Positions 27,220 through 64,000 of a stretch of DNA of 64,000 bases are shown one piece after another. The notes under the pieces were generated by a model that saw only the letters and a list, made by a program, of their open reading frames with translations, was not told the DNA's origin and searched no databases. Source of the stretch: a virus; the IMG/VR virus record IMGVR_UViG_3300035698_019437, positions 83,269-147,268 of that record; one strand, written 5' to 3'. The position numbers and the translations under genes were made by a program. Position 1 is the first letter of the stretch; each line of letters starts with the position of its first letter.

Positions 27220-27220
27220 T

Positions 27221-45738: not shown

Positions 45739-45767
45739 ATAATCGGAAATAAAATAACAGGTGTAAA
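45739..45767 (-). promoter_or_regulatory. Candidate promoter for the neuB-like gene
   Basis: On the minus strand TTTACA (5 of 6 bases of the -35 consensus, 45762-45767) is followed 17 bases later by GATTAT (4 of 6 of the -10, 45739-45744). It lies in the 68-base divergent gap, and the neuB-like gene must be transcribed from its own promoter since all neighbours run the other way. The exact boxes are inferred. Confidence 0.35.
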
Positions 45768-45788
45768 ACTGTTAGTTAAAATATATTC

Positions 45789-47478: not shown

Positions 47479-47523
47479 GCCGAGAATATGTATTTGACCG
47501 GCAAGAAAGGAAGGTTAAGTTCA

Positions 47524-47922: not shown

Positions 47923-48503
47923 TGTCAAATAAATTATCTAGAAGACAGAAGAGTAAGTTTCGCAAGAAGGATCGTCTAAGGCAAAAAGATCAGAAAGCTA
48001 TATATAAAGCTGGTCTCAAGGCAATGGTAAAGAAATTTGATGACCCTATTCTTTCTTGTCAATGCTATTTTGTTAGGGAAGACGAAGATTTGAGTTTTGT
48101 CAAGACCCTTAAGAAAGTTCTTCTTGTTCATGACAATGGTGTCGGTTTGGCTGCATCGCAGATAGGAATCACTAAAGCCGTTGTAGCTGTGAGATTCGAT
48201 ATCAAGAAATACGATGTTAAGATTATGATTAATCCAGAAATTGTAGAGCATACTACGGAGATGGAAGCTGGTCAAGAAGGTTGCCTGTCCTACCCAAAGG
48301 TGGTTGGTAACATAACTCGATATAAGGGCGTTACTGTAAAATATCTGGATGAAGAGATGAAGGAACATGTTGAAAAGTTTACTGGTTTTAATTCTCGCGT
48401 TGTACAACACGAACTGGATCATATCGACGGAGTTTGTAAAATAGGAATCTGGTGGAAAGAGAATCAGGATCAGAAAGTCTACTCTGCACAGCCTTCTTCA
48501 TAA
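47922..48503 (+). CDS. def: Peptide deformylase
   Basis: Removes the formyl group from the N-terminal Met of new proteins. All three family motifs are present: GVGLAASQIG (about residues 73-82), EGCLSYP (about 117-123), and QHELDHIDG (about 162-170), giving Cys and two His metal ligands with the catalytic Glu. It has a basic 40-residue N-terminal extension (SRRQKSKFRKKDRLRQK), unusual for phage deformylases, which may bind ribosomal RNA. It starts on the DUF1257 stop and overlaps the AmrS gene. Confidence 0.93.
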   Translation: MSNKLSRRQKSKFRKKDRLRQKDQKAIYKAGLKAMVKKFDDPILSCQCYFVREDEDLSFVKTLKKVLLVHDNGVGLAASQIGITKAVVAVRFDIKKYDVKIMINPEIVEHTTEMEAGQEGCLSYPKVVGNITRYKGVTVKYLDEEMKEHVEKFTGFNSRVVQHELDHIDGVCKIGIWWKENQDQKVYSAQPSS

Positions 48504-49542: not shown

Positions 49543-51459
49543 ATGGGTTCACCGGAATTTACTATTGTACACTACATAGACAGTTTAGGCATAGGCGGCG
49601 CACAGTCTATGCTTTTTGAGCTGTACCATGCCTTAGAAAAATACTATCCAGAAGTATCTCAAAGCGTTTGGTTATCTAACAAAAAATGTACATGTTCTTC
49701 TTTTATCAAATCTTATGGTATAGATTACCATTTTGTTCCTAAAAGTAGCTTCGTAATGACTATTACGGCTTTTGAAAAGCCCGTAATATTGATCTATCAT
49801 AAATTGATGGGTTCTCATACTGACATATACAGAGGTATCAGGAAAAGAGTGCCAATCATAACCATTAATCACACCTTTACCAAGAATCCTGTTTATAATA
49901 GAATTAGTCCATGCGATATGGTTGTATGTGTCAGTAGACATATGAAGTCGTTTCTTAGACGAAGACTAAAAAATCAACGTATGGCTGTTATACGAAATGG
50001 TATAGATTTAAATAGATACAGCGGGATCGCCCCAAGAGAGAATCCATATAAGGATGTATTTCTTACTGGTAGAATCAACTCTTTCAATTCTATTAAGTTT
50101 TCTAAATCTTGGGTGAAGTGGTGTATCGATGTTAAGTTGTCTAAGAAGATGATCCATGAATATATAGGAGATGGTCAATACTATAAAAGTATAAAAACGT
50201 TTTTGAAAGAGAAAACTGATTCTAGAAACGACGTTGTTTTACTAGGTAAGATTAAAGACTTCGACAGAAAAATATCCATAGTCAAAAACTGGGATATCTT
50301 TTTGTATGAGGTTAATCGTGATGAGGGTGTGAGTATAGCTATATTAGAAGCTCTTGCTTGTGGTGTTCCCGTAATATGCAGTAATCATTTCGGTAACAAA
50401 GAAATTATAGAAGAAGGCGTCAATGGATATGTATTTACAAAGAGAGAAGAAGCTGCTTCTATTTTGAAAAGACTTTCTTCTAGACCTGATGAGCTAGATG
50501 CTTTGAAAAAAAGTACGTTGGAGCATTTCAAAGAAAATCTAGATATCAAATATGCAGCAGAAGGATACATGGAAAAAATAGTTAATATTTGTAAGAAAAA
50601 GAAAATCAGGATTCCTTCTGGTATAAAAAGCAAAATAGAGGGTAGGAAAGAGAAGGAAGCTATTAAAGAGATTGTTGAGAAAAAACCACAATCTAAAGAC
50701 AACAAGCTTTTTTCTATATTGACTGCTGCTAGGAATGTGAGTCCATATCTAAATGATTGGGCGATGTCTATCTTAGAACAAACTTATAGACCTTTGGAAG
50801 TTATTTTCGTAGATGATTCATCTACAGATGATACGTTTGAAAAAATAATTAAACTGTATCCTAAATTCAAAAGAGAAGATATATCTATGAAAGTTGTCCA
50901 CAATGATAAAAGATATCATTGTGGCACGGCTTATGCGAAGGCATGGGAGATCGCATCTGGATTCTATTTCGGAGTTCTAGATGGCGATGACATGTTATAT
51001 CCAGATGCTGTTGATTATATAGTAGATTTGTACGAATCTAATCCTGATATAACATACATATATACCCAGTTTATGTTATGCAACACTAAAATGAAAAATG
51101 TCAGAAAAGGTTTTTGTCATGCTCCTAAGAGGGGTAAGTCTTTATTGGATATGGGAGGTGACAAAGTTCATGGGTTCTCCCATTGGCGAACCTTCTCTAA
51201 TAGATTACCAAAGATAGAAAAGATTTGGGGTAGAGGGCTTAGAGCAGGAATAGACAAGTATATGGGATATAGATTAGAAGAATTTGGAAAAGGCATGTTC
51301 ACTAATAAGGTGTGTTATAAATACAGGTGGGCTAGACCGGGATGTATATCTAAAACTGAAAAAGCCATAGCTTCATGGCAAAAGATTATTAAAGAGGCTG
51401 AATGGCGTAGGAAGAAGTATAACATTAAACCTTACCCAATAATAGACCATAAGGGATGA
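49543..51459 (+). CDS. Fused GT4-like and GT2 glycosyltransferase
   Basis: A 638-residue bifunctional enzyme. The N-terminal GT-B half (about residues 1-355) has GIGGAQSMLFELYHA near residue 18 and the donor motif SIAILEALACGVPVICSN (about 265-282) with EIIEEGVNG. A Lys-rich linker follows. The C-terminal GT-A half (about 388-638) has LFSILTAARNVSPYLNDW, FVDDSSTDD and LDGDDMLYPDAV. The C-terminal half is closely similar to the separate GT2 protein at 55225 (shared YTQF, GFSHWRTFS, DKYMGYRLEEFGKGMF). This suggests a fusion or fission between neighbouring enzymes. Confidence 0.88.
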   Translation: MGSPEFTIVHYIDSLGIGGAQSMLFELYHALEKYYPEVSQSVWLSNKKCTCSSFIKSYGIDYHFVPKSSFVMTITAFEKPVILIYHKLMGSHTDIYRGIRKRVPIITINHTFTKNPVYNRISPCDMVVCVSRHMKSFLRRRLKNQRMAVIRNGIDLNRYSGIAPRENPYKDVFLTGRINSFNSIKFSKSWVKWCIDVKLSKKMIHEYIGDGQYYKSIKTFLKEKTDSRNDVVLLGKIKDFDRKISIVKNWDIFLYEVNRDEGVSIAILEALACGVPVICSNHFGNKEIIEEGVNGYVFTKREEAASILKRLSSRPDELDALKKSTLEHFKENLDIKYAAEGYMEKIVNICKKKKIRIPSGIKSKIEGRKEKEAIKEIVEKKPQSKDNKLFSILTAARNVSPYLNDWAMSILEQTYRPLEVIFVDDSSTDDTFEKIIKLYPKFKREDISMKVVHNDKRYHCGTAYAKAWEIASGFYFGVLDGDDMLYPDAVDYIVDLYESNPDITYIYTQFMLCNTKMKNVRKGFCHAPKRGKSLLDMGGDKVHGFSHWRTFSNRLPKIEKIWGRGLRAGIDKYMGYRLEEFGKGMFTNKVCYKYRWARPGCISKTEKAIASWQKIIKEAEWRRKKYNIKPYPIIDHKG

Positions 51460-51460
51460 T

Positions 51461-52036
51461 ATGAAAGATACTCTGAAATTTTATGATAAAATATATAGTC
51501 CACTTTTTAAAAAAAATTATACGAAAAAATCAAATCGAGCAGGACCGTCATTACAACAGTTAGAAGTTTTTAGAAAATCTAATAAAATAGACATACATAA
51601 AGTAATAGATGTTGGGTGTTCGTGGGGAAGGGCTTTAAAATATTGGAGAAAGCGTAATGTCTATGCTGTTGGGGCAGATGTTTCTAAAATCGTTGTAAAA
51701 CATTGCATTAAACATAAACTTAATTGTAAACGATCTTCTGCAACTGATTTATCTAAGTTTAATGATAAATCTTTTGACCTTTATATGTCAACAGATGTTT
51801 ATGAGCACATTAGAGAAAAAGATTTACAATTTGCTATAGAAGAAGCAATACGTGTTACAAATAAGTATTTTCTTATCAGAGTACATACTATGCTAGATAA
51901 AAGAGGTACACTTCATTTGACTGTGTGGAACCTTGATCGTTGGGCCTCTTTTTTTATGAATAATGGTTTAAAAATACTTAATTTCGGGGATGGTAAATTT
52001 AATACATATAAAAATACGTTTTTCATGGAGATATAA
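51461..52036 (+). CDS. Class I SAM methyltransferase
   Basis: A 191-residue methyltransferase with VIDVGCSWGRALKYW (motif I, about residues 48-62), GADVSKI (motif II), FDLYMSTDVYEHI (about 102-114) and LIRVHTM in later positions, like methyltransf_11 enzymes that modify small molecules, sugars or lipids. Lies in the glycan island and may methylate a sugar. The DNA around it is more AT-rich than nearby genes. Confidence 0.8.
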   Translation: MKDTLKFYDKIYSPLFKKNYTKKSNRAGPSLQQLEVFRKSNKIDIHKVIDVGCSWGRALKYWRKRNVYAVGADVSKIVVKHCIKHKLNCKRSSATDLSKFNDKSFDLYMSTDVYEHIREKDLQFAIEEAIRVTNKYFLIRVHTMLDKRGTLHLTVWNLDRWASFFMNNGLKILNFGDGKFNTYKNTFFMEI

Positions 52037-52542
52037 TGGCAACTGAATTAAGGGCAAAGCACAATAAATGGCTTAAAGAGATTTTGAAACATAAAAAATT
52101 CGGTATCGTATTAAATCTTGGCTGTGGTAAAAATAGAGATTCTGAGGGGCATACATATAAATCTTATATAAATTGTAAAAAGATTATAAAGATAGACCCA
52201 GACCCAAAATTTAAGAAAATAGTTGACTTTAAGGCTAAAGGAGAAGATATACCGCTTGAAGATGGTTTAGTTGATCTAGTATTTATGAATTGGGCGTTTC
52301 ATATGACTGACATGACTGTTGTACTTTCTGAGATTTGTAGGGTTCTTCGTAAGAATGGAAAGGTACTTATAAGTTATGCAGATCATAATTATGATGAAAC
52401 AGTGGCAAGGAAAAAAGTAGCTGATATTAGATTTTTGTTAGAGAGTAAGATTACTATTGAAAAGTTTTTTGAAAATGAAGCTCATGGTATTACTGGTGGT
52501 TTTTTTCAAAGAGCCGAAGCTATATATGGTAGGTTAAAATGA
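52036..52542 (+). CDS. Class I SAM methyltransferase (short)
   Basis: A 168-residue methyltransferase, with VLNLGCGKNRDSEGH (motif I, about residues 23-37), KIDPDPKF, and LVDLVFMNWAFHMTD (about 77-91), plus an EICRVLRKNGKVLISY strand. Typical of type-11 methyltransferases. ATG overlaps the preceding stop, so it is coupled with the methyltransferase upstream. Confidence 0.78.
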   Translation: MATELRAKHNKWLKEILKHKKFGIVLNLGCGKNRDSEGHTYKSYINCKKIIKIDPDPKFKKIVDFKAKGEDIPLEDGLVDLVFMNWAFHMTDMTVVLSEICRVLRKNGKVLISYADHNYDETVARKKVADIRFLLESKITIEKFFENEAHGITGGFFQRAEAIYGRLK

Positions 52543-52991
52543 CAAAAAAGTGTTTCGATATATCTGGTAAAATAATATGTGGTATTCGAGCTGCTTTTGT
52601 TAAAGAGGATGGGTTGCTTGGAGATATCATTCCTAGAAAAGATAGTTTGAACGAAGCTGTTCTTAAATTACAATCGAAGATGAAATTACATAAATCGTTA
52701 TTAATATCTTCGCCAAGTAATTTAGCTTTTAAAGATGGTCATTTTTTTTGCTATTATGGGAGCAAGAAATTTTATTATCCGATGTCAGAAGAAAAAGGTG
52801 TGTTTATTTTTATGCCATTAGTAACTGGTAGAAAGGATTCTAAGGATACTTTTATATCGAATTATATTCAATGCGCTCGTATATTGGCAGTTAAAGGTAT
52901 ATTTCCAAAAATTCTAGGTGCACAAAGTGTAAATGTAGATATTGATGTATATTATGTTAAAAAAATCTTGATGATCTTGGACAAAAGATAA
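52539..52991 (+). CDS. Hypothetical protein (150 aa)
   Basis: Overlaps the previous gene by four bases. Two Cys and a Lys-rich region; mixed alpha/beta appearance (GVFIFMPLVTGRKDSKDTF). Lacks recognised motifs. By position it is part of the glycan island. Confidence 0.6.
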   Translation: MTKKCFDISGKIICGIRAAFVKEDGLLGDIIPRKDSLNEAVLKLQSKMKLHKSLLISSPSNLAFKDGHFFCYYGSKKFYYPMSEEKGVFIFMPLVTGRKDSKDTFISNYIQCARILAVKGIFPKILGAQSVNVDIDVYYVKKILMILDKR

Positions 52992-53020
52992 AAAAATGTC
53001 ATAGAGATAATGCTGTAGGA

Positions 53021-53380
53021 ATGATAGTAAAGAGAATAATATCTCCTTCTTTTGATTTTGATTTATGTGAAAAAAATAGAGATATGATTATATCTATTTT
53101 TACGAAGTTATGGAAAGAAAAAAAGTATGATGCATATAATCTTAGTAATCATGAAAAGGATTTTTTATATGGTAATGGTTTCTCTGATGAGAATCCATTA
53201 TTCACAAAATATTACTTTAAAGAATTTTGTAAAAAGATTATAAGTGAAGTCAAAAAAAATAAAATGTGGAAATATATGAATCGTGAAAAATCAGCTTTTA
53301 TGAATAATTTAGATTTAAAATATGGTAATATATTATACAGTAAAGAAGAAAAGAAATGGTACTATATAGATTTTTGTTAA
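53021..53380 (+). CDS. Hypothetical protein (119 aa)
   Basis: A helical, aromatic-rich protein (FTKYYFKEFCKKIISEV) in the glycan island. A Shine-Dalgarno is not evident. No family was recognised. Confidence 0.55.
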   Translation: MIVKRIISPSFDFDLCEKNRDMIISIFTKLWKEKKYDAYNLSNHEKDFLYGNGFSDENPLFTKYYFKEFCKKIISEVKKNKMWKYMNREKSAFMNNLDLKYGNILYSKEEKKWYYIDFC

Positions 53381-53390
53381 AGGAAAATAA

Positions 53391-54278
53391 ATGATACCAA
53401 ATATTTACAAAGGTCTCAGTTTTGATGATTTGTTAAAAATCATATCTCGTGGTATAAATATAAAAAAGAATAATAAAGTTGGTCCTTTTAAAGATTCTTG
53501 TTGTAATGGTGGTTATTATATGACTGCTCCAGGGACTGATATATATTGTTGCTTACCATATCTCAACGAAAAGCAAATTAAACTTGCAGGAATTAAGTTT
53601 GCTCATGCTTGGCCTAAAAAGGCACCTGTTTCTCATTTGTCTTACGCTGCATGTGTTCGTTTTATATATGGACAGTTAGATAAAAATGGTGGGTTGTTAT
53701 CTGATCCTACTTTTTATCTTCCGATAGATTCGGCAGAAGATATAGGGACTTCTTCTATATATAGAATGAGAGAGTCTCCACCAGACTGGACATTAGCTAG
53801 AAAATTTTTAAAGTATACAATTGAAGAGATGATAAAAATTAAACAGTATTATGGTTTGTGTATATTATATGAAATGGAAGGACATCGAGTCGGAGATGAA
53901 TCTCTTATTTATAAAAGTAAGACAAAATTATTAGAAATGAAAAAAATGTATAAGAGGTCATATCGTTATGCAGTTAAGTCTAAGAGTTTTAAACAAATGT
54001 TTACTCCTTTTTATTGGGGGTCTCGCTATATGATGAAGTTTGGAGATAAAGAAATGGCATTAAATTTTTGTAACAAGGCTATAAGGAAAGCAGCAGTTCA
54101 CTGTCCAGACAATAGAAAATCATATATGCAAAAGATACACAAATGTTGTGTGTATATGCAATTAAATCATGATAATCCTAAAAATTATTTTAAGGAAATT
54201 CTTAGCAATAAAGCAAAAAAAGCTGTTAAAGTTGCAATCTCTAAAGCACGTTCGTTGAAACTTCCACATTTAAAATGA
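53391..54278 (+). CDS. Hypothetical helical protein, possibly TPR-like (295 aa)
   Basis: Has AAAGGAAAATAA before ATG. The N-terminal part (about 35-110) is Cys/Gly-rich (DSCCNGGYYMTAPGTDIYCC). The C-terminal half looks like helical pairs (KEMALNFCNKAIRKAAVHCP) of the tetratricopeptide kind. No catalytic motif is visible. In the glycan island, perhaps an accessory or chaperone for a glycosyltransferase. Confidence 0.6.
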   Translation: MIPNIYKGLSFDDLLKIISRGINIKKNNKVGPFKDSCCNGGYYMTAPGTDIYCCLPYLNEKQIKLAGIKFAHAWPKKAPVSHLSYAACVRFIYGQLDKNGGLLSDPTFYLPIDSAEDIGTSSIYRMRESPPDWTLARKFLKYTIEEMIKIKQYYGLCILYEMEGHRVGDESLIYKSKTKLLEMKKMYKRSYRYAVKSKSFKQMFTPFYWGSRYMMKFGDKEMALNFCNKAIRKAAVHCPDNRKSYMQKIHKCCVYMQLNHDNPKNYFKEILSNKAKKAVKVAISKARSLKLPHLK

Positions 54279-55228
54279 TTATAATGGATAAAAAAATAAC
54301 TATATTTTTACGTAAACCAAAATTTTCAGGTGGACCAAGAATTTTTCTTGATAGAATTTTACCTTTTTTGGAGAAACAAAAAGGCATCTCAATAACCTAT
54401 AATGAGAAGAAAGCTTTTGATACAGAATTGGTCATTGTTACAAAAACTACTAAACATAATAAACAATATACTGTTAGACTAGATGGATGTTATTACAGGA
54501 AGAAAGTTTTCAATAAAAATATTCCGATTATCAAAACAATTAAAAATGCAAAACATCTTATATTCCAGTCTGAATTCTCATATAAGATGTGTAAGAAATT
54601 GTTAAAATTTGGTAATAAGCCTTATGATATAATACGTAATGGTATAGATTTGGAATGGGTCAAAAGTATAAAAGCAAATGATAAAATAGTTCTAGGATCG
54701 TTTGTTGCTTGTTCTAATTGGAGAGGAAGAGATAATAAAAGGCCGTTGTCAATAATACGAGGGTTTCTAGAAGCTAATACTGGTAGGCATTTGTATTTTA
54801 TAGGAGAGTTTGAAGATAATAGTATTCCACTTAAATATAAAAGTAATTTTATACATTTCCTTGGAAAGAGGTCTAGCGAAGATATTATATCCATAATGAA
54901 AGCATGTGACTATCAAATTCATCTTTGTCATATAGATTCTTGCCCGAATGCCGTTATAGAGGGTTTAGCATGTGGTCTTAACGTTCTTTGCACAAATCTG
55001 GGGGGAACACCAGAGCTTGTTGCTTCCGATGGCGTTGTATTGAATGTAGATAAATGGAATTTTAAAGTCAAAAAGTTCAAAATTCTTGATAATTTACCAG
55101 TTGATGTAGTATCTAACGGTATCAATGATATTCTTGAGAAAAAAGAAAGATGCCTTCGGCCTGATGTCGATATAAATATAACAGCATCAATGTATGCGAA
55201 TTCCATAAAAAGGTCAGTAAATAAATGA
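54275..55228 (+). CDS. GT4-like glycosyltransferase (paralogue group)
   Basis: A 317-residue GT-B enzyme: FSGGPRIFLDRILPFL at the start, RLDGCYYRK in the middle, RNGIDLEWVKS and GSFVACSNWRGRDNKRPLS opening the donor half, then HLCHIDSCPNAVIEGLACGL (about residues 213-232) with NVLCTNLGGTPELV. It belongs to a paralogue group with 55997 and 58650 that share the HLCHIDSCPNAVIEGL-type loop. The in-frame ATG at 54284 is an alternative start. Overlaps the downstream GT2 gene by four bases. Confidence 0.85.
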   Translation: MIIMDKKITIFLRKPKFSGGPRIFLDRILPFLEKQKGISITYNEKKAFDTELVIVTKTTKHNKQYTVRLDGCYYRKKVFNKNIPIIKTIKNAKHLIFQSEFSYKMCKKLLKFGNKPYDIIRNGIDLEWVKSIKANDKIVLGSFVACSNWRGRDNKRPLSIIRGFLEANTGRHLYFIGEFEDNSIPLKYKSNFIHFLGKRSSEDIISIMKACDYQIHLCHIDSCPNAVIEGLACGLNVLCTNLGGTPELVASDGVVLNVDKWNFKVKKFKILDNLPVDVVSNGINDILEKKERCLRPDVDINITASMYANSIKRSVNK

Positions 55229-55995
55229 ACAAACTTTTCACAATAATGACAGCAACATATAATTGTTCTAAATATCTGGACGACTGGGCCAGGTCTATCT
55301 TAGAACAAACTTATAGACCATTAGAAGTTGTTATCGTAGATGATTGCTCTAATGATGGGAATAAAACAAAAAATACTATTCGTAAGCTTGAAAACAGTTT
55401 TGCGAAAAATGATATCTATATTAAGTATATTAAGAACAAAAAAAGAAAGTATTGTGCAAGCTCATATGAGATATGCAGATTACACTCTAATGGAGATTTT
55501 ATGGGAGTTCTGGATGCTGATGATATGTTGAAAGCTGGTGCAGTTGATCATGTTATGGATTTATACGAAATGTATCCAGAGGTTACATATATTTATACAC
55601 AATTTCAAATATGTAATATGAAGATGCGTTCCATTAAGAAGGGCATGAGTTGCCACCCTGGCAAGCATGGTTCGTTGTTAGCTCTTGGCGAACATGGCAT
55701 ACATGGTTTTTCTCATTGGCGAACATTCTCTACACGGTTCCCAAGACCTGAAAAAATCTTCAAGAAGGGGTTGACTTGTGCTGTAGATAAATATATGGGA
55801 TATAGATTAGAAGAGTTTGGAAAAGGCATGTTCTCAGACAGTATATGCTATAGATACAGACAACGTATGGGATACTCATTAACCACATCAGGTACACCTA
55901 CTAAGATAATATGGGCTGGTATCATAAAAGAAGCAAAAAAGCGCAGAATAAAGTATGGATTGAAGGCACATCCAATTATACAACATAGGCTATAA
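55225..55995 (+). CDS. GT2 family glycosyltransferase (paralogue of the fused GT)
   Basis: A 256-residue GT-A enzyme. LFTIMTATYNCSKYLDDW, VIVDDCSNDG (about residues 36-45), and VLDADDMLKAGAVDHV (about 94-109) are catalytic motifs. The stretch ILEQTYRPLEVV and the C-terminal half (HGFSHWRTFSTRFPRPEKI and DKYMGYRLEEFGKGMF) are close to the C-terminal half of the 49543 protein. It therefore arose by duplication of that domain, or its source gave rise to the fusion. Confidence 0.88.
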   Translation: MNKLFTIMTATYNCSKYLDDWARSILEQTYRPLEVVIVDDCSNDGNKTKNTIRKLENSFAKNDIYIKYIKNKKRKYCASSYEICRLHSNGDFMGVLDADDMLKAGAVDHVMDLYEMYPEVTYIYTQFQICNMKMRSIKKGMSCHPGKHGSLLALGEHGIHGFSHWRTFSTRFPRPEKIFKKGLTCAVDKYMGYRLEEFGKGMFSDSICYRYRQRMGYSLTTSGTPTKIIWAGIIKEAKKRRIKYGLKAHPIIQHRL

Positions 55996-55996
55996 T

Positions 55997-56929
55997 ATGA
56001 TTACAGTTTTTATACAAACAGAAAAGTTCAAAGGTGGTCCTGCTGTTTTTAGGTCGAGGATTATCCATCAGCTAAAGACGTATGACGATATCAATGTTGT
56101 TACGAATCATAAAAAGCATTTTGATATTGAGTTGTGCTTTATACGTCAAATCCATAAACATAAGAAGCCACGCATAGCAAGGATGGATGGTTGTTATTAT
56201 ATAGGTAGTACGTTGCCAAACGATTCTCTTAAGCATAATGTGAAAAAATCTAAGTACGTTATCTACCAATCGTCTTTCTCAAGGCAGATGTGTCATCATT
56301 TTTTGGGAGTTCATAAACCATCCAAGGTTATCTATAATGGAGTCGATACAGATTGGATAAATAGTATTGAACCAAATAAGAATATAGAACCTGGTTCTTT
56401 TGTAGGCGTTAGTCATAGGTGGCGTAAGAACAAAAGACCCGTTTCGATTATAAATGGTTTTGAAGAAGCTGATTGTGGACGAACCTTATATATTATTGGT
56501 TCGGCTGGTAAAGATATTATTTTCCCTAAGAATGTGTCACACCGTGTCAAATTTTTAGGCGACAAAACGTCGGAAGAAACTATTGCTATTATGAAAGCAT
56601 GTGATTATCAAATGCATCTATGCCATATAGATTCATGTCCAAATGCGGTTATCGAAGGGTTGGTATGCGGTCTTAACGTATTGTGTACTAATCTGGGCGG
56701 CACCAGCGAGCTTGTGAAGGAAAATGGCGTAATTATGAAGGTTGACCCATGGGAAAACAAAAAGCTTCCTAAAGCTGATTTAGACTCTTTAAAGCCGCAT
56801 GTTGTTGCAGAGGGCGTTCATAATCTTCTTAAGATAACCAAGCGGCCTTTACGGCCTGATTTAGATATAACCGTTGCTGCTGATAAATACTCAGATGTTA
56901 TTAGGAAGGTTATAGCCAATGACTTTTGA
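55997..56929 (+). CDS. GT4-like glycosyltransferase (paralogue group)
   Basis: A 310-residue GT-B enzyme, paralogue of 54275: KGGPAVFRSRIIHQL, ARMDGCYYIGS, YNGVDTDWINS, and HLCHIDSCPNAVIEGLVCGL (about residues 212-231) with NVLCTNLGGTSELV. Adjacent to the GT2 gene in the same order as the GT4-GT2 pair before it, giving repeated GT4-GT2 gene pairs. Confidence 0.86.
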   Translation: MITVFIQTEKFKGGPAVFRSRIIHQLKTYDDINVVTNHKKHFDIELCFIRQIHKHKKPRIARMDGCYYIGSTLPNDSLKHNVKKSKYVIYQSSFSRQMCHHFLGVHKPSKVIYNGVDTDWINSIEPNKNIEPGSFVGVSHRWRKNKRPVSIINGFEEADCGRTLYIIGSAGKDIIFPKNVSHRVKFLGDKTSEETIAIMKACDYQMHLCHIDSCPNAVIEGLVCGLNVLCTNLGGTSELVKENGVIMKVDPWENKKLPKADLDSLKPHVVAEGVHNLLKITKRPLRPDLDITVAADKYSDVIRKVIANDF

Positions 56930-57641
56930 GCCTGAAGTTTCTGTTGTTACTACGCTATATAACTATAGGAACTATATAGGAGATGCTATAGAGTCTTTTC
57001 TGTGTCAAGACAAAGAAGAATCTGAGATGATTATTGTAGACGATGCATCTACAGACAATCCTTATAAGATTATATCAAAATATGAGTCAGAACGTGTGCG
57101 GTATATTCGACTAGATAAGAATAAGGGCTATTCGCACGCGAAGAATGTAGGTATTAAGGCTTCTCAAAGCGAAGTTCTCGTTATGCTCGACGCGGACGAT
57201 ATGTTGACTAAGAACGGTGTCTCGTCACGTTATGACAAGTTGATGGAAGGATATGATTTTGTTCATGGTCCCGCTTTAGATTATTGGATGAATAATCAGA
57301 AGACAAGTAGAACTAAGATGTGGAAACAATGGATGAAGAGCAACGCACATAAATACGTTCATGCTCAAGGTGTCATGCTCCGTAAAAACATACATCGTAA
57401 GATAGGTTTGTATGATGAATCTTTGAGATGCAACTCTGATAGAGAGATGTTTGCACGCATTTTTAATCGTGATTTTAAAATAGGATATGTTACGATTGAT
57501 GTATCCATATATCGTAGACACCCTAAGCAAATGCATAAATCTAAAGCCAAGCTATTGATAAATAATAAGTTGCAAAAAATAGTAAAAGCAAAAGTAGAGA
57601 AAAGAAAAACAGATTTATCTGATCTAGATTTTCTTAAATAA
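56919..57641 (+). CDS. GT2 family glycosyltransferase
   Basis: A 240-residue GT-A enzyme. VSVVTTLYNYRNYIGDAIES is the N-terminal motif; IIVDDASTDNPYK and VMLDADDMLTKNGVS hold catalytic residues. MLRKNIHRKIGLYDES and CNSDREMFARIF form the acceptor half. Related to the GT2 gene at 61888 (same DADDMLTK and GYS/KNVG). It overlaps the preceding GT4 gene by 11 bases. Confidence 0.86.
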   Translation: MTFEPEVSVVTTLYNYRNYIGDAIESFLCQDKEESEMIIVDDASTDNPYKIISKYESERVRYIRLDKNKGYSHAKNVGIKASQSEVLVMLDADDMLTKNGVSSRYDKLMEGYDFVHGPALDYWMNNQKTSRTKMWKQWMKSNAHKYVHAQGVMLRKNIHRKIGLYDESLRCNSDREMFARIFNRDFKIGYVTIDVSIYRRHPKQMHKSKAKLLINNKLQKIVKAKVEKRKTDLSDLDFLK

Positions 57642-57651
57642 AGGGAAATTG

Positions 57652-58653
57652 ATGCGTGTAAAGCCTAATAGTTTTAAAAAACTTATAGCAGTTACTAAAG
57701 AAGGAAAGATCACCAACTTAGATATTACGTTGATGAGAAAACCTTTTGGTGCTGAAGTACAGAATAAAAAGATAAAAAAAGCTGGTATTTGTATTTCTTG
57801 TGATTATAGATTTGCAGAAAAAAATATAACTTGGTCTAAGAAGGTGAAGGCTATTTGTCATCCGTTTAGGATTAAAACCTATTTACCTTCATCTATCCCA
57901 CAATATTCGTTATCCGAATCGGATTTCTGTGATGATCTTTTGACCAGTATAGGAGATACGTCTGAAATTCCTCAATATGATTTTGTTTATTTTACTCTTT
58001 TATCTAGACAAGGCATTAAATGTAAGGGTCTTTATATGCTTCGTCTGATAGATAGAGCGGCTAGGGAACTTGGGTTGAATGGACTTATTGTTGACTATTG
58101 TACTAATAACTCAAAAAAGTATAAAAGACCTATCTATAAAAATCTTTTAAAGATAGCAAAAAAGGAGTGGAATAATTTTACGAATATTAAAACAAAACAT
58201 AAACTTTTTACAGATAAAAAATTATCTTCCGTGATAACTTCTGCAAAATTTGTTCTTTTCCCCAATACCGCCGATAGCAGCCCAAGAATAATAACTGAAG
58301 CAATTGTAAATTCTAGGCCAGTTGTTGTCAATGGTAATATATATGGTGGATGGAAGTATGTTAATGAAAATACAGGAAGATTTTTCGAAGCTCCTAGCCT
58401 GAAGGACGCTCCAGATAAAATAGAAGAAGAACATTATCTTGATTCTTTAAAAAAGGCTATGAAAGAAGTTTTGGTCTTAGATCGAAGTAAAATAAGAGAT
58501 AGTTATTACAAAGAGTTTGGGTTTTTAAATACTTCTAAAAGATTGGCAGATATCGTATTTGATGTTACAGGAAAAAGATATAGAGCGGTTGCGTTTAGGG
58601 ATTGGAAAAAACAACTTTTGATAGTATCTAAACAAGAAGGTTGGATTAAGTGA
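57652..58653 (+). CDS. Putative GT-B glycosyltransferase
   Basis: A 333-residue protein. The N-terminal half is divergent. The C-terminal half has AKFVLFPNTADSSPRIITEA (about residues 195-214) and NSRPVVVNGNIYGGWKYVNENTG, a typical GT-B donor site with conserved acidic residue. I prefer ATG 57652 over the TTG at 57649; AAAGGGAAA lies in front. The gene and its right neighbours look more AT-rich than the GT genes on their left. Confidence 0.68.
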   Translation: MRVKPNSFKKLIAVTKEGKITNLDITLMRKPFGAEVQNKKIKKAGICISCDYRFAEKNITWSKKVKAICHPFRIKTYLPSSIPQYSLSESDFCDDLLTSIGDTSEIPQYDFVYFTLLSRQGIKCKGLYMLRLIDRAARELGLNGLIVDYCTNNSKKYKRPIYKNLLKIAKKEWNNFTNIKTKHKLFTDKKLSSVITSAKFVLFPNTADSSPRIITEAIVNSRPVVVNGNIYGGWKYVNENTGRFFEAPSLKDAPDKIEEEHYLDSLKKAMKEVLVLDRSKIRDSYYKEFGFLNTSKRLADIVFDVTGKRYRAVAFRDWKKQLLIVSKQEGWIK

Positions 58654-59567
58654 AAATTGGATTTAGTGTAAATATAAAAGAGAAAGATGTTAATTCTGGT
58701 AAACATCGTTTTTTTATTAGGTTAGCCAAATGTTTCGAGGAGCAGGGTATTGATGTTTCGTCTTCTAATCCAGATATATTTTTAATGAATTCTAATGACA
58801 AACGTAATACAAAGGCAAAAGTTAACATCTTGCGACTTGATGGTTTAATATTAAATAGTGAACAAAATTATAAAATTAAAAATAAAAAAATAGTAAACAA
58901 TATAAAAAAGTGTGATGCTATTGTATATCAATCTACATTTTGCAAAGATGCTTATAGAAAATTTCTTAAAGTAAAAAAAGAGCCATATGCAATTATAAAT
59001 AATGGTGCAGATATTTACGAATTTCTTCCCAGAACTACTGAGAATTTTATTTTAGCAAATTGCAAATGGAGACCACATAAAAGACTTAATGATATAGTTA
59101 AATCTTTTATAATTGCTCTTGATATGGGTTTGGATTCTGATCTTGTTATTACTGGTAAACCTGATAGGAAAATTAAGAAACACAAAAGAATTAAATATAT
59201 TGGATGGCAACAGGTTAATGAGTTAAAAATATTGTTATCAAAAGCAATATGTACGATACATCTTACATGGTTAGATTGGTGCCCAAATGCCATGATAGAG
59301 TCTATTATGGCTGGATGCCCACTTGTATATACAAAATCAGGTGGACATACAGAACTGGGCAGAGGTTCAGGTATAGGGATAGATGACCAGAAATGGGATT
59401 TTAAACCATGTAAGTTATATTCGCCTCCAAAAATAGATAGAAAAAAAGTAGCAGAAGCGATGTTATCTATGAAGAACGAAGGAATGAAAACAGATAGAAA
59501 AAGATTTGACATTGTTTCGATTGCAAAACAGTATAACGAGTATTTTTTAGATATACTTTCTAAGTGA
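58650..59567 (+). CDS. GT4-like glycosyltransferase (paralogue group)
   Basis: A 305-residue GT-B enzyme with a GTG start on the upstream stop. LRLDGLILNSEQNYK, INNGADIYEFLPRT, LANCKWRPHKRLND and TIHLTWLDWCPNAMIESIMA (about residues 203-222) with YTKSGGHTELG link it to the 54275 and 55997 paralogues, but it is more divergent. Followed by FkbM genes that may methylate the product. Confidence 0.84.
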   Translation: MKIGFSVNIKEKDVNSGKHRFFIRLAKCFEEQGIDVSSSNPDIFLMNSNDKRNTKAKVNILRLDGLILNSEQNYKIKNKKIVNNIKKCDAIVYQSTFCKDAYRKFLKVKKEPYAIINNGADIYEFLPRTTENFILANCKWRPHKRLNDIVKSFIIALDMGLDSDLVITGKPDRKIKKHKRIKYIGWQQVNELKILLSKAICTIHLTWLDWCPNAMIESIMAGCPLVYTKSGGHTELGRGSGIGIDDQKWDFKPCKLYSPPKIDRKKVAEAMLSMKNEGMKTDRKRFDIVSIAKQYNEYFLDILSK

Positions 59568-59574
59568 GGACATT

Positions 59575-60198
59575 TTGAACTATTATATTGAATTAGGAAT
59601 GTATGATGCATCTACTTTTTTACGAGGAATAAAACTTTTTCCAGAATTTGATCGTTATATAGGTTTCGAGCCAATTCCTGTTTTATATAAATCTATAAAA
59701 AAAAGTCTTAAAAAAAAGTTGAAACTTAAAAATCCCTCTTTGTATGAAAAAATTACTTTAGAACGTAAAGCAGCTAGTGTCGTTGATGATTCTAAGGCAA
59801 AATTTTATGTAGGGAAAAATAAAAAAAGTAAATCAGGTATAAGTGAAGGTTCTACGTTAAATATAAATAAAACGTCAGGACAAATATCAAAAGAAAAGTT
59901 TATATATGTACAGTCTGTCGATTTTTCTCAGTATATATATGATACTTTCAAAGAAGATGATTTTATTGTTTTAAAAGTTGATATAGAAGGAGAAGAGTAT
60001 AACTTGTTTCAACACATGATAGAGGAAGGTTCTATATCTTATATAGATAAGATATTTTGTGAATGGCATTATAAAAAAGTTGAAAACGTTAACGAGATAG
60101 ATCATAATGACATTGTTACTCGTCTTAATAAATTCGGATTTGAATTAACCGGATATAATTCTGATGATGATTTTTCTCGTTTGTATTCTAGAAAGTAG
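59575..60198 (+). CDS. FkbM-like methyltransferase (divergent)
   Basis: A 207-residue protein with a TTG start preceded by GAGGACATT. It begins YYIELGMYDASTFLRGIKLF and carries VLKVDIEGEEYNLFQHMI (about residues 131-148), the KxDIEGxE motif of FkbM methyltransferases. The AdoMet-binding region is reduced. FkbM enzymes methylate sugar hydroxyls, so the gene fits the island. A second FkbM gene follows. Confidence 0.7.
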   Translation: MNYYIELGMYDASTFLRGIKLFPEFDRYIGFEPIPVLYKSIKKSLKKKLKLKNPSLYEKITLERKAASVVDDSKAKFYVGKNKKSKSGISEGSTLNINKTSGQISKEKFIYVQSVDFSQYIYDTFKEDDFIVLKVDIEGEEYNLFQHMIEEGSISYIDKIFCEWHYKKVENVNEIDHNDIVTRLNKFGFELTGYNSDDDFSRLYSRK

Positions 60199-60251
60199 TA
60201 TTAGATTGATATCGAAAGTATAGTAGGTCATAGAAAGAGTTGGAGTCAATT

Positions 60252-61112
60252 ATGAATTTTAGTAAAGGTAATCTTGTTAAAAAGAAGATAGATGGATTTA
60301 AGTTTTATTTAGACCCGCGAGATAAAGGGGTGTCTTCAGCTTTGTTGCACGCTGGATCGAGAGAGCCAGAATTTATTTGGATGATTAAAAAAGAAGCAAA
60401 GGGTGCATTGGCTATTGATATAGGAGCTAATATAGGACATATAAGCATGTATCTTTGCAGAAGTATGGATCATGTTGTATGCATAGAAGTTGATAGTCGT
60501 ACAAGGCGGATTCTGAAAAAGAATATAGACAAAAATGGTTTTAAAGAAAAAACAACTGTTCTTAGCTGTGCTATTTCTAATGTTGCAGGAGAACAAGATA
60601 TATATTATGCCGATAGTCCTAATTTGACGACAATGAACAAACCTGATAAATCTAAGATACAAAAAGCAGGGATAGTAGAGACCAATACAATAGACCAGTT
60701 AGGGTATGCCCCAGATTTTATAAAGATGGATATAGAGGGATATGAGATAGAAGCTTTATTGGGAGGAATGAAAACATTTTCCGAAGCTAAGCATTGCAAA
60801 ATTTTGATAGAGGTTCATCCAGAAACTTATAGTGAGTCTCGTAATTTTTCAAAGGTTCTTAGAGAGTTACTGGATATAGGTTATAATTTTAAATATGTTG
60901 TATCTGCCGCCGTTGCTTGTCCAGACTTATTTAGAGATAGAGGTTATAGTCCACATAAAGTTTTTAAAGATGGGAAATGGGCTAGGGGCATATATACAGA
61001 TGTAAGTAATGAAGATGCAATATTCTTTTGCGAGAAATCTCATAAGCAATATATCCCAAAATATGACAAGACAAGTCCAAGAATAGTTAGATCAATACTC
61101 CTAGAAAAATAA
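60252..61112 (+). CDS. FkbM-family methyltransferase
   Basis: A 286-residue SAM methyltransferase. AIDIGANIGHISMYL (motif I, about residues 53-67), CIEVDSRTRR and FIKMDIEGYEIEALLGG (about 156-172, the FkbM signature) are present, plus LIEVHPETY. Start ATG 60252 has GGAG before it; TTG 60240 is an alternative. Likely O-methylates a sugar or a glycan. Confidence 0.88.
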   Translation: MNFSKGNLVKKKIDGFKFYLDPRDKGVSSALLHAGSREPEFIWMIKKEAKGALAIDIGANIGHISMYLCRSMDHVVCIEVDSRTRRILKKNIDKNGFKEKTTVLSCAISNVAGEQDIYYADSPNLTTMNKPDKSKIQKAGIVETNTIDQLGYAPDFIKMDIEGYEIEALLGGMKTFSEAKHCKILIEVHPETYSESRNFSKVLRELLDIGYNFKYVVSAAVACPDLFRDRGYSPHKVFKDGKWARGIYTDVSNEDAIFFCEKSHKQYIPKYDKTSPRIVRSILLEK

Positions 61113-61885
61113 TGTCTACAATAAACCAATGTAGAATGAATAAGGGTTCTAAGCTTTTATTCTCTGATTTTATGCACAAATATAGTTTGCGTAATATTAA
61201 TAGCAGGAACAAGCCGTGCATCTTTTTTGGCGTTTATTGGAATGATATAACTGTTCTACTTAGTCATAAATCTTTAGCTATAGCGGTCTGGCGAGGCTCA
61301 GACGCTATGAGCGATAATAGGATTAAAAAGTGCAAAAAAAAATCTAATATAAAACATGTTGCAATTTCTTCTTTTATAGAAAATGATTTCAAAAGATTAG
61401 GCGTTGAATACAAATTTTTACCCATAATTGGAACTAATGCAAAAATGTTTAAACCCTGTCCTCTGGGTGATGAAATATACACTTATATACCTAATTCAAA
61501 ACCAGATTTTTATGGGTTGGAAATCATAAAAGACATACAGCGTAAATCTAAGTTCAAGATTAATATTATAGGCGGAGATAAAAGATATACAAGACAAGAA
61601 CTTGTAGATATATACAAAAGGTGTTTTATAGGATTAAGGCTTACTCCACACGATGGAATCGCTAATAGCGTTATAGAACTGGGTCTTATGGGAAGAAAAT
61701 GTATATATAATGATAACCGTGTACCGGGAGCTATACACTGGGACAGAGGGAATGTAAACAAAATAATGGAATCTATAGATATCGAGTCTAAAAAAATAGG
61801 ACAAATTAATTTATCTCTGTATAAGTCAGTGAAATCCTATATAGACATAGGGAAAAATTGGCTAAAACCTAAATTTTGGATATAA
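61112..61885 (+). CDS. Putative GT-B-like glycosyltransferase
   Basis: A 257-residue protein. KPCIFFGVYWNDITVLL, IAVWRGSDAMSD, then FLPIIGTNAKMFKPCP and IYKRCFIGLRLTPHDGIANS with VIELGLMGRKCIYN (about residues 190-203) follow the layout of a shortened GT-B enzyme, the last being a donor-site helix with a conserved Glu. No exact family was recognised. It begins on the previous stop (TAATG). Confidence 0.65.
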   Translation: MSTINQCRMNKGSKLLFSDFMHKYSLRNINSRNKPCIFFGVYWNDITVLLSHKSLAIAVWRGSDAMSDNRIKKCKKKSNIKHVAISSFIENDFKRLGVEYKFLPIIGTNAKMFKPCPLGDEIYTYIPNSKPDFYGLEIIKDIQRKSKFKINIIGGDKRYTRQELVDIYKRCFIGLRLTPHDGIANSVIELGLMGRKCIYNDNRVPGAIHWDRGNVNKIMESIDIESKKIGQINLSLYKSVKSYIDIGKNWLKPKFWI

Positions 61886-61887
61886 AA

Positions 61888-62682
61888 ATGTTAAATAATC
61901 CACTTGTGAGCGTAGTTGTAACTTTATATAATTATGAAAAATATATAAAAGATTGCCTTCTGTCAATCAAAAAACAGGATTATGATAATATCGAGATTAT
62001 TGTAGTAGATGATTGCTCTAAAGATAAATCAGTGGATGTTGCAAATTCCGTTGATAAAGTTAAGGTTATAGCATTGACGGAAAACAAGGGTTATTCTTTT
62101 TGCAAAAATGTAGGTATTAAATCATCTAAGGGTAAAGTTATAGTATTGTTAGACGCAGATGACATGTTAACGAAGAAGTCCGTGTCGCACAGGCTATCGT
62201 CTTTGTTATCAAACGATGTTGAATTTGTGTACGGTAATGCTATAGCTGTTTATGGTGATATATCTCTTAAAAAATGTTACAAACTTAAGAATTTACCATA
62301 TCAAAATATCAAATTGTATGCTAAGAAAAAACCTTCTATAGAGATGTGTAATACTTTGTATAATATACATGCTCAAACAGTAATGGTGCGTAGGCATGTA
62401 TATCAGGAGTATGGTTTATATGATGAGGATTTAGTATCTAGGTCTGATAGAGAGATGTGGTGGAGGCTTTTTGGGAAATCTGACGATGATAAAAAATTAG
62501 TAACGCATGCTTTTGTTAATAAACCATTAGCATATTATAGATATCATAGAAAGTCTATGAGATATAAGAGAAAAAAGAATAAAGAGAAAAATCAAGTGAT
62601 TATAGCTGCTTCTGAGAAATCTTTTGAAAAAAGGAAAAGAGAAGGTATTACTCTCGATAATACATCTTTTTTACAATACTAA
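61888..62682 (+). CDS. GT2 family glycosyltransferase
   Basis: A 264-residue GT-A enzyme: VSVVVTLYNYEKYIKDCLLS, IIVVDDCSKDKSVDV and VIVLLDADDMLTKKSVSHRL carry the catalytic residues, and MVRRHVYQEYGLYDEDLV, SRSDREMWWRLFGK the acceptor part. Start ATG 61888 is preferred; a TTG at 61876 overlaps the previous gene. Close to the gene at 56919, indicating duplication. Confidence 0.86.
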   Translation: MLNNPLVSVVVTLYNYEKYIKDCLLSIKKQDYDNIEIIVVDDCSKDKSVDVANSVDKVKVIALTENKGYSFCKNVGIKSSKGKVIVLLDADDMLTKKSVSHRLSSLLSNDVEFVYGNAIAVYGDISLKKCYKLKNLPYQNIKLYAKKKPSIEMCNTLYNIHAQTVMVRRHVYQEYGLYDEDLVSRSDREMWWRLFGKSDDDKKLVTHAFVNKPLAYYRYHRKSMRYKRKKNKEKNQVIIAASEKSFEKRKREGITLDNTSFLQY

Positions 62683-62683
62683 T

Positions 62684-63763
62684 ATGAAAATATTTGTTCA
62701 ACATGGTTCGGTTCGGAAAATTGCTCCTTTCAAAGGATCAGGCGTTATTACAACAATTAATATGTGTTGCGCTCTTAGCTTGTTTACAGAAGTTTATTAC
62801 TCCGGTTATAAAATTATCCCAAACGAACCCCATTATGGTACAAAGTCTCATCGTTCTACTTTTGAATTGAAATCTATAGAAAGAGATTATGATCTATATA
62901 TAATCAGAAATAACATGTCGTTACTAAGATTTCTAAGAAAAAAAAGACCTAATGCTAATATAGTTTGGTTTGTTGATAGTTTTTCAAAAAAAGCTTTTAA
63001 AAAATCTACCATATTAGCAACTACAACAATGTCCTGGGCAGATTTATTGAGAAATGGCAAAAAAGCGGTAAAAATAAATCCTGAAGGTTATAGACATAAG
63101 AGAGTAATCACATTACAACAATCTTTTTTACCTAGTTTTAAACCTCTTCAAGATCATGCTGAAACACAAAAGATAAGGGAAGAAATAGGTGGAGATTTTA
63201 TAATAGGATACTTTAGCAAATCTTTGGGAGGGTTTAATCATCCATATATTCTTTTGAAATCTATACCTGAGATAATGAAAAAAATTCCAAATGCTAAGAT
63301 TGTTATAGGGACACGTGATACTCGCAAAAAAAGAGAAAAATTAGAGAAAAAAACTGGTGTTAAAGTATGTAAAGTTAGTCATAAAAAAATGCCGTATATG
63401 TTATCTGCATGTGATTTGGTGATGATAACTTATTATAAGTCTGGTTGGGATTATTATGGTAGCTTAAGAACGTTAGAGACAGCAGCATGTGGAGTCCCTT
63501 TAATATTACCCAAGTCTATTGCTAGAAAAGAAGTTTTAGGCGATGATTATAAGCTATTTGTAAATAGAAGTATTTTTGAACCACCTATAACAAAAGATAA
63601 AGTAAAACGATTTGTTAAAATAATAAAAAAATTATCAGATGATGAAAGTTTGAGAAATCAAATATCTGCTCAGTTAATACAAAAAGCATCTATGTATACT
63701 ATTGAAAAAACCGCTGAATCTATAAAAACTCAATTATCTGTATATTGTAGAAAATTAAAATGA
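62684..63763 (+). CDS. GT4-like glycosyltransferase
   Basis: A 359-residue protein starting MKIFVQHGSVRKIAPFKGSG. An in-frame ATG at 62624 would overlap the previous gene by 59 bases and is unlikely. The donor half has IIGYFSKSLGGFNHPYILLK, AKIVIGTRDTR, YMLSACDLVMITYYKSGWDY and YGSLRTLETAACGVPLIL (about residues 261-278), with conserved Glu. Related by layout to other GT-B enzymes, not to the 54275 paralogue group. Confidence 0.78.
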   Translation: MKIFVQHGSVRKIAPFKGSGVITTINMCCALSLFTEVYYSGYKIIPNEPHYGTKSHRSTFELKSIERDYDLYIIRNNMSLLRFLRKKRPNANIVWFVDSFSKKAFKKSTILATTTMSWADLLRNGKKAVKINPEGYRHKRVITLQQSFLPSFKPLQDHAETQKIREEIGGDFIIGYFSKSLGGFNHPYILLKSIPEIMKKIPNAKIVIGTRDTRKKREKLEKKTGVKVCKVSHKKMPYMLSACDLVMITYYKSGWDYYGSLRTLETAACGVPLILPKSIARKEVLGDDYKLFVNRSIFEPPITKDKVKRFVKIIKKLSDDESLRNQISAQLIQKASMYTIEKTAESIKTQLSVYCRKLK

Positions 63764-64000
63764 AAAAGAAAATATTATTTATATACAATAAAATAAGAGC
63801 CACAAAAAAGACTAATAGAATCATACACTGTGGATGGATAACAGATTGTCAAAATCTTTATGAAGTAGAATTTTGGGGAAAGGGATTTTCGGAGACAAGC
63901 ATAGATTCTCTCCAAAAGAAGATAGATTCATTTAAACCTGATTATATATATAGCACAAACAGAAAGGCATCTGAAAAGTGGTTGCCAGATATTAGTAAAA
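63760..64000 (+). CDS. Partial gene at right edge, probably another glycosyltransferase
   Basis: ATG 63760 overlaps the stop of the preceding gene, and the frame stays open to the window end (about 80 residues). It begins MKKKILFIYNKIRATKKTNR and has CQNLYEVEFWGKGFS and YIYSTNRKASEKW. A start with KILFIYN and DYIYSTN-type strand is common in GT-B enzymes. The family is a guess from context. Confidence 0.5.
   Translation, partial: MKKKILFIYNKIRATKKTNRIIHCGWITDCQNLYEVEFWGKGFSETSIDSLQKKIDSFKPDYIYSTNRKASEKWLPDISK

Follow-up and report, generated by a model that had tools for sequence, protein, structure and literature searches.

Sialic acid-like sugars are known decorations of cell surfaces, and bacterial O-antigen and capsule clusters typically mix GT2 and GT4 glycosyltransferases (GTs) with FkbM and NeuB proteins. 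The NeuB TIM barrel is marked by a conserved metal-binding His and by Lys and Ser residues at the PEP site, and the KDN pathway of Bacteroides consists of a KDN-9-P synthase, a KDN-9-P phosphatase, and a CMP-KDN synthetase. Autonomous glycosylation of virions has been reviewed for the chlorovirus PBCV-1 and for Mimivirus, where sialic acids go unmentioned (PMC4691112, PMC9614988), and a mycobacteriophage glycan is found on capsid and tail-tube proteins (Freeman et al., 2023, as cited in PMC12619734). In this study, we describe a 64-kb stretch of DNA (the window) whose right edge coincides with that of a linear 147-kb IMG/VR virus contig, itself a fragment. Its genes are best read, with moderate confidence, as serving the cytoplasmic assembly of a methylated, nonulosonate (NulO)-containing glycan on virion tail proteins.

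Gene content of the island, the upstream cassette, and the adhesin region

An earlier note on this DNA had placed an island of about ten GTs and four methyltransferases at 49543-64000. Its content and coordinates hold: 49543-63999 is a one-strand run of GTs and four methyltransferases, 99% coding, whose genes overlap or sit no more than 41 bp from their neighbors:

49543..51459, + strand, GT4::GT2 fusion glycosyltransferase (Pfam; full-length orthologues at 43-45%)
51461..52036, + strand, methyltransferase, Methyltransf_11 (Pfam)
52036..52542, + strand, methyltransferase, Methyltransf_11 (Pfam)
53391..54278, + strand, conserved all-helical protein (orthologues at 35-38% in four huge phages)
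54275..55228, + strand, GT4, lineage-specific duplicate of 55997-56929 (Pfam; tree support 97/92)
55225..55995, + strand, GT2, paralogue of the C-terminal half of the fusion (Pfam)
55997..56929, + strand, GT4 (Pfam; orthologues at 41-46%)
56919..57641, + strand, GT2, best-conserved island gene (Pfam; 60-65% in huge phages)
57649..58653, + strand, probable GT-B glycosyltransferase (hhalign 62%; conserved at 34-39%)
58650..59567, + strand, GT4, weak (Pfam just under cut-off; orthologues at 46-47%)
59575..60198, + strand, FkbM methyltransferase (PF05050, 4.4e-10)
60240..61112, + strand, FkbM methyltransferase (PF05050, 3.4e-14)
61112..61885, + strand, probable GT-B glycosyltransferase (hhalign 70%; homologues in the L048 and L050 cassettes)
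61876..62682, + strand, GT2 (Pfam, 1.6e-29)
62624..63763, + strand, GT4, start codon uncertain (Pfam, 6.3e-7)
63760..63999, + strand, truncated ORF open at the contig end

Eight ORFs with nine GT domains were found by Pfam, one of them just under the cut-off, and the methyltransferases are two Methyltransf_11 and two FkbM proteins. Two further proteins, 57649-58653 and 61112-61885, gave no Pfam match; part of each aligns, profile to profile, with the GT-B C-terminal domain of the neighboring GT4s (62% and 70% probability, respectively), making them probable GTs and bringing the tally to about ten. The GT2 at 55225 shares 54% identity with the C-terminal half of 49543, and its relatives lie at 47-53%. 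In the Pfam-based survey ORFs 52539, 53021, and 53391 were not recognizable as GTs or methyltransferases; the AlphaFold model of 53391 (pLDDT 78) had TPR-like and 14-3-3-like matches below significance, and Foldseek likewise returned no significant match.

Since the window stops at the contig end, the island is cut rather than finished, and its right border is an assembly end rather than a biological one. On the left, the start given in the earlier note did not hold: a nonulosonate cassette at 40240-46292, which it had missed, belongs with the island, which therefore starts further upstream than 49543. We think it rather likely that the window ends in the first part of a glycan super-island belonging to a huge tailed phage. 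The cassette combines two GT42-like sialyltransferases, a CMP-NulO synthetase, a NeuB without the SAF domain, and a HAD protein resembling KDN-9-P phosphatase, and is followed by three conserved genes:

40240..40941, + strand, predicted GT42-like sialyltransferase (nonulosonate transferase), first (phrog_4603 alpha-2,3-sialyltransferase, 9.6e-11)
41740..42510, + strand, predicted GT42/Maf-like sialyltransferase, second (phrog_4603, 4.5e-10; profile)
42485..43258, + strand, predicted CMP-nonulosonate synthetase, NeuA/PseF-like (PF02348; TIGR03584 1.2e-15, under cut-off)
44845..45720, - strand, predicted NeuB nonulosonate synthase without C-terminal SAF domain (PF03102, 4.7e-59)
45789..46292, + strand, HAD phosphatase, KDN-9-P/NulO-9-P phosphatase-like (best NCBIfam KDN-9-P phosphatase, 3.3e-22)
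47488..47922, + strand, small conserved protein (29-50% identity in four relatives)
47922..48503, + strand, peptide deformylase (PF01327; same place in G003 and G004)
48452..49525, + strand, radical SAM enzyme, AmmeMemoRadiSam-type (TIGR04337 5.2e-60, under the 220-bit cut-off; conserved)

The profile of the GT42-like family matches the PDB profile of Cst-I at 8e-8 over nearly its whole length. The second protein, 41740, also has a weak PF01973 match under the cut-off, and its AlphaFold model, a weak one (pLDDT 63), had MptE (HPPK kinase) as its highest-ranking VIA-align match at Z 12.4, ahead of Cst-I at Z 10.9, and no significant Foldseek match. An MptE-like identity was rejected, as the sequence profile favors GT42 and MptE is absent from the profile matches at E up to 1. 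The alignment contains no column with an invariant His, the catalytic base of GT42 enzymes. The profile places both 40240 and 41740 with GT42, as predicted sialyltransferases, and so does the fold of the weak model for 41740.

The synthetase at 42485-43258 matches a PDB CMP-NeuAc synthetase at 7e-15. The window NeuB (291 aa) has no SAF match and stops where SAF would start, and about 81 of 95 viral NeuB-like ORFs likewise lack a tail of SAF size. It keeps the NeuB TIM-barrel domain and the conserved catalytic columns, with E11, K39, K119, S145, S213, H215, H236, and D247 invariant across five phage NeuBs. Its match to TIGR03569 (N-acetylneuraminate synthase, 2.2e-49) scores 168 bits against a cut-off of 400, and we therefore call it NeuB-like with the sugar left unspecified. 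The HAD protein has intact DVDGT and GDxxND motifs and scores 79 bits against the 180-bit cut-off of NF058599 (KDN-9-phosphate phosphatase). Because all NulO enzymes of the window fall under the NCBIfam equivalog cut-offs, the exact sugar can only be suggested; it would be KDN or a Neu5Ac-like sugar.

The three additional GTs that had been seen near the adhesin are also present, at 5717-8380, adjoining a large kelch-repeat protein that is a candidate acceptor of the glycan:

52..5685, + strand, very large kelch-repeat virion protein/adhesin, start codon uncertain (Pfam Kelch; PHROG virion structural protein, 2e-5)
5717..6508, + strand, GT2, first of the adhesin-linked trio (PF00535; orthologues with conserved order in G002, G003, and G004)
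6505..7650, + strand, GT4, second of the trio (PF00534; conserved)
7634..8380, + strand, GT2, third of the trio (PF00535; conserved)

The adhesin has collinear relatives in two huge phages; G003 and G004 preserve the order of adhesin followed by trio, and G002 has the trio itself. In several phages GTs or cassettes lie directly 3' of tail-fiber or kelch-adhesin genes: at locus L049 a sialyltransferase-like gene begins 13 bp past a tail-fiber gene that is preceded by baseplate genes, and at L048 and L050 comparable GT cassettes come after Ig/lectin, tail-fiber, and kelch proteins. The window also has a DNA methyltransferase-like gene, and Rfam found no RNA families in the window.

Relatives in huge phages and other viral contigs

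The earlier note had called for the flanks to be checked for a host chromosome with an O-antigen cluster and for a comparison with huge phages. The flanks consist of phage genes for replication and structure. Three huge-phage contigs, 298, 351, and 548 kb long, are collinear with the whole 64 kb and thus also with the island, at 42-44 reciprocal best pairs and |rho| 0.995, so that an origin in a host chromosome is rejected. The window carries the collinear core of the G002, G003, and G004 huge-phage clade, namely adhesin, helicase, PolIII alpha, RecA/UvsX, and island; the PHROG terminase model matched in G002 only. In the three long relatives the island extends for tens of kb more, with three NeuB paralogues in each. 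The GT load had been described as far more than usual for a phage: the count stands but is not unique, because the GTs of related huge phages are similar in number.

The most conserved GT2 reaches no more than 33% identity over most of its length in its best bacterial and archaeal matches (one genome per species, 84,980 species) and 44-67% in viral contigs, and the island GT2s fall in phage-only clades of the tree with 100/100 support. Relatives in viral contigs were reached only by alignment queries, as single-protein scans of these contigs with NeuB or the GT2 at 55225 gave no matches. The collection of named phages held no relative of 55225 at 1e-5, distant relatives only for 49543 and 56919, and two distant NeuBs. 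About a dozen viral contigs contain the NulO cassette; the HAD gene is present at all 13 of the closest viral NeuB loci, and sialyltransferase, CMP synthetase, NeuB, and HAD lie within 8 kb at 11 of the 13. A curiosity of one phage is thereby ruled out, the cassette being common to many viral contigs. On the evidence of its genes the island is phage-borne, and their content supports the earlier suggestion of a complex methylated glycan.

Proposed pathway and alternative explanations

In the pathway we propose, the SAF-less NeuB would condense PEP with a six-carbon sugar, which may be phosphorylated; the product would be dephosphorylated by the HAD phosphatase, and the CMP synthetase would activate the nonulosonic sugar for use by the GT42-like sialyltransferases. 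The GT2/GT4 series would build the remaining chain from host nucleotide sugars, and the FkbM and type-11 methyltransferases would cap or decorate it. The chain would grow sugar by sugar in the cytoplasm on phage virion proteins, most likely tail-fiber or kelch adhesins, and the phage may benefit through a change in adsorption to the host or through a shielded tail. A simple hydropathy scan of four islands, run without a positive control, found none of 265 ORFs with at least two hydrophobic segments, and thus no Wzx/Wzy flippase, polymerase, ABC transporter, or GtrA-like protein; with no gene for polytopic membrane transport present, cytoplasmic assembly of the chain is the most likely course, and host machinery could supply any membrane steps.

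We consider it unlikely that the phage GTs and NulO enzymes instead remodel the host surface. In that reading they would modify the LPS, capsule, or flagellin of the cell during infection, which might, for instance, prevent superinfection or conceal receptors from the progeny. Prophage enzymes that alter host glycans are known, as in pseudaminic acid conversion (PMC12053666) and a prophage capsule polymerase (PMC9241936), and bacterial Maf-type NulO transferases act on flagellin (PMC11339370). Some of the GT2s weakly match PHROGs for GtrB-like O-antigen conversion, and host flippases or cytoplasmic acceptors could serve; however, the hydropathy result and the placement of GTs and cassettes with tail genes speak against such remodeling. 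Glycosylation of phage DNA (hypermodified bases) against restriction is very improbable: phage GTs can put diverse glycans on DNA (Pyle et al., 2024, as cited in PMC12619734) and the window has its DNA methyltransferase-like gene, but the GTs adjoin adhesin and tail genes, and their number and the three NeuB paralogues go beyond the needs of base glycosylation. We know of no DNA-modification route that includes NeuB, CMP-NulO synthetase, sialyltransferases, or FkbM enzymes. A bacterial O-antigen or capsule cluster acquired by host contamination, chimeric assembly, or recent transfer would fit the mixture of GT2, GT4, FkbM, and NeuB, and can be dismissed almost entirely in view of the synteny kept across three long phage contigs that come from different samples and in further contigs, GT2 clades exclusive to viral contigs, bacterial relatives this distant, and the lack of Wzx, Wzy, and ABC genes in the four scanned islands.

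Assembly on virion tail proteins thus remains the preferred reading. We extend it to the whole clade tentatively: these huge phages might run a largely self-contained factory of tens of kb that synthesizes, activates, and transfers its own NulO and lays a methylated sialic acid-like coat on tail adhesins without a lipid carrier. If true, prokaryotic viruses that make their own sialylated glycoproteins would form a class not described before, and the SAF-less NeuB would be a virus-typical synthase type present in hundreds of viral contigs. Our literature search turned up no account of huge phages with a nonulosonate pathway, and the apparent "NeuB" matches examined were author names; this is weak evidence of absence because the search was restricted to open-access literature. 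A conserved phage pathway for NulO synthesis and transfer would mean that bacterial viruses can build elaborate glycoproteins; it would offer concrete genes for asking why phages sugar their virions, be it for adsorption, shielding, or mimicry. The new soluble GTs and methyltransferases, together with the minimal NeuB synthases, are also a large set to draw on.

Comparison with known glycosylation systems

The same three-step gene set is found in the Bacteroides KDN pathway, and the HAD protein has KDN-9-P phosphatase as its best NCBIfam model, although its score is well below the cut-off and its substrate is a prediction. The predicted sialyltransferases resemble Campylobacter Cst-I and Cst-II in profile and in fold (Z 9-11, weak model); they differ in their 11-16% identity to these enzymes, and the alignment shows no invariant His. 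Flagellin O-glycosylation by Maf and FlmG (PMC11339370, PMC7591256) likewise combines NeuB, CMP-NulO synthetase, and a transferase free of lipid carrier, and the central PF01973 domain of Maf resembles Cst-II, as does 41740; here, in contrast, the genes are phage-borne, NeuB lacks SAF, a HAD phosphatase is present, and there is no flagellin. With the mycobacteriophage system, as summarized in PMC12619734, the island would share a phage glycan on virion proteins, whereas it is far larger, encodes its own sugar synthesis, and has fibers or adhesins as suspected acceptors. The chlorovirus PBCV-1 and Mimivirus systems also rely on virus-encoded soluble GTs, GT fusions, methyltransferases, and nucleotide-sugar enzymes (PMC4691112, PMC9614988), and the GMD and fucose synthase of PBCV-1 have counterparts in G003. 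The present genes differ in belonging to a tailed phage of prokaryotes with a nonulosonate pathway and a candidate acceptor, and the likeness is one of gene content; judged from its genes, the island may work much as chlorovirus self-glycosylation does.

Glycosylation genes of the window

The glycosyltransferase (GT) island of the window lies beyond a putative nonulosonate (NulO, a sialic-acid-like sugar) cassette that was absent from the earlier note. ORFs are named here by their start coordinates.

52-5685: kelch-repeat adhesin
5717-8380: three GTs (GT2-GT4-GT2)
40240-46292: two sialyltransferase-like genes, CMP-nonulosonate synthetase, NeuB (other strand) and HAD phosphatase
47922-49525: peptide deformylase and AmmeMemoRadiSam-type radical SAM, between cassette and island; conserved in several huge phages
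49543-64000: GT island, one strand, 99% coding, genes overlapping or nearly so

The island had been proposed to hold about ten GTs and four methyltransferases. ORF calling and Pfam return nine GT domains across eight GT ORFs, and the methyltransferases number exactly four (two of type 11 and two of FkbM type); ten GTs would be reached by adding 57649 and 61112, which have no Pfam match and align partly with the GT-B C-terminal domain of the adjacent GT4s (62% and 70%; hhalign). The three further GTs claimed near the adhesin are real by Pfam, and further left the same contig has another GT4 and a gene weakly resembling GT4. The GT4 pair 54275/55997 is a duplication within the window's lineage (tree support 97/92), and 55225 is 54% identical to the C-half of the GT4::GT2 fusion (49543).

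The sialyltransferase assignment is based on phrog_4603, which matches both genes (4.5e-10 and 9.6e-11), on the PDB hits of a family profile (Cst-I, Cst-II and a Pasteurella enzyme; best 8e-8), and on the fold of a weak model, compared with Cst-I (Z 10.9 over 198 residues) and MptE (Z 12.4). In addition, 41740 weakly matches PF01973, the Maf_flag10 domain, which resembles Cst-II (PMC11339370). NeuB retains the conserved catalytic columns and stops where the SAF domain would start. PHROG has no family for NeuB, the HAD or the CMP synthetase, and since all NulO enzyme family scores in the window fall below the equivalog cut-offs, the cassette leaves the precise sugar unspecified. The family nearest to the HAD is KDN-9-P phosphatase; if it acts on a 9-phosphate, the pathway could begin with a hexose 6-phosphate and PEP, metabolites that are common in cells.

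Phage replication and structural genes fill the remainder of the window, among them helicases, primase, single-strand binding protein, UvsX/RecA, exonuclease and PolIII alpha. The latter is in two ORFs (25906-29867), separated by about 1 kb that contains a 173-aa ORF and has no match in Rfam; it is also interrupted in three relatives (G002-G004) and a single ORF at locus L013. An intein with a LAGLIDADG-like domain lies at 35793-37715, and its gene has short counterparts in G002 and G003 that seem to lack the intein. On contig G000:C1, 32014-42514 (L008, L009) holds a row of small paralogous ORFs, and several ORFs there start with MNWY and then continue alike, which suggests a repeated N-terminal signal.

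Relatives among huge phages

Single-protein scans of viral contigs found no relatives; a two-GT2 alignment query reached metagenomic contigs of 548, 351, 298 and 47 kb (G002-G005). Their neighbourhoods share the window's order of NeuB, HAD, 47488-like protein, peptide deformylase, radical SAM, GT4::GT2 fusion, GT2, GT4, GT2, 57649-like, 53391-like and GT4. In the 548 kb phage, an inserted element appears to divide the radical SAM gene into two ORFs (L016 2228-6167). With 50-58 kb left of each island read for comparison, the whole window is collinear with each of the three long contigs (42-44 reciprocal best pairs, |rho| 0.995), and RecA identity is 52-57%. For 56919, the GT2 with the highest conservation, additional viral relatives stand at 44-67%; in bacterial genomes, identity is at most 33% over most of its length and at most 47% over segments of some 90 residues. 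A maximum-likelihood tree places the island GT2s in two clades (100/100 support) without bacterial members, and the adhesin-linked GT2 7634 falls apart from them.

The source, an IMG/VR virus record, is linear (147,268 bases) and the window is its bases 83269-147268; the right edge is thus the assembly end, and the island is cut. In G003 the region reaches 190 kb or beyond and holds two additional NeuBs, a hydrolysing UDP-GlcNAc 2-epimerase NeuC (352 bits), a GDP-mannose dehydratase and an HldE-type adenylyltransferase domain (all three above cut-off), KdsB-like and PseF-like cytidylyltransferases, and a fucose-synthase-like enzyme. Three NeuBs are likewise present in G002 and in G004. By homology we infer that the window covers no more than roughly the first third of the relatives' island, though this genome may differ.

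An alignment of five phage NeuBs, queried against viral contigs, gave 295 NeuB relatives among 336 candidates, of which the best 80 were kept. Among the matches listed, the 13 closest loci (48-60%) all have the HAD, and in 11 a stretch of 8 kb or less holds NeuB together with the sialyltransferase, CMP synthetase and HAD; the independent phages are fewer than 13, because the set includes the four known relatives and possibly some near-duplicates. A SAF-sized tail is missing in about 81 of 95 NeuB-like ORFs. More distant NeuBs occur on one cyanophage contig and in one 484 kb phage, where the neighbours resemble GT29 sialyltransferases by motif only (L015 11247-15322). By motif only, a 149 kb contig also has one ORF with a GT29-like sialylmotif (L051 17676-18308). 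The cyanophage contig, MH319754, carries a dense glycan cluster (L014 2511-17905) with NeuB, aminotransferase-like and cytidylyltransferase-like genes.

Assembly and candidate acceptor

A hydropathy scan found at least two hydrophobic segments in none of the 265 ORFs of four islands, and thus gave no indication of Wzx, Wzy, ABC transporters or polytopic initiating transferases, which points to glycan assembly that would be soluble and cytoplasmic. Gene position suggests an acceptor. The adhesin followed by its GT trio has counterparts in G003 and G004; at locus L049, a sialyltransferase-like gene starts 13 bp past a tail-fibre gene (phrog_24210, 3.6e-15) that itself comes after baseplate hub and wedge genes; and at L048 and L050 similar GT cassettes, the former also with NeuB and CMP synthetase, lie downstream of Ig/lectin, tail-fibre and kelch-domain proteins. 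We therefore favour tail fibres or adhesins as the candidate acceptor; modification of the host surface and glycosylation of DNA are possible rival readings.

Comparison with self-glycosylating viruses

Chloroviruses and Mimivirus glycosylate their own virions without the host secretory machinery (PMC4691112, PMC9614988), and virion glycans are known in mycobacteriophages (cited in PMC12619734). Term searches of the two giant-virus reviews (PMC4691112, PMC9614988) found no mention of sialic or nonulosonic acids, and no published description of a phage nonulosonate pathway was found in literature of incomplete coverage. The virus studied here would, like chloroviruses and Mimivirus, be self-glycosylating; unlike them, it is a probable huge phage with a predicted sialic-acid-type sugar supply of its own.
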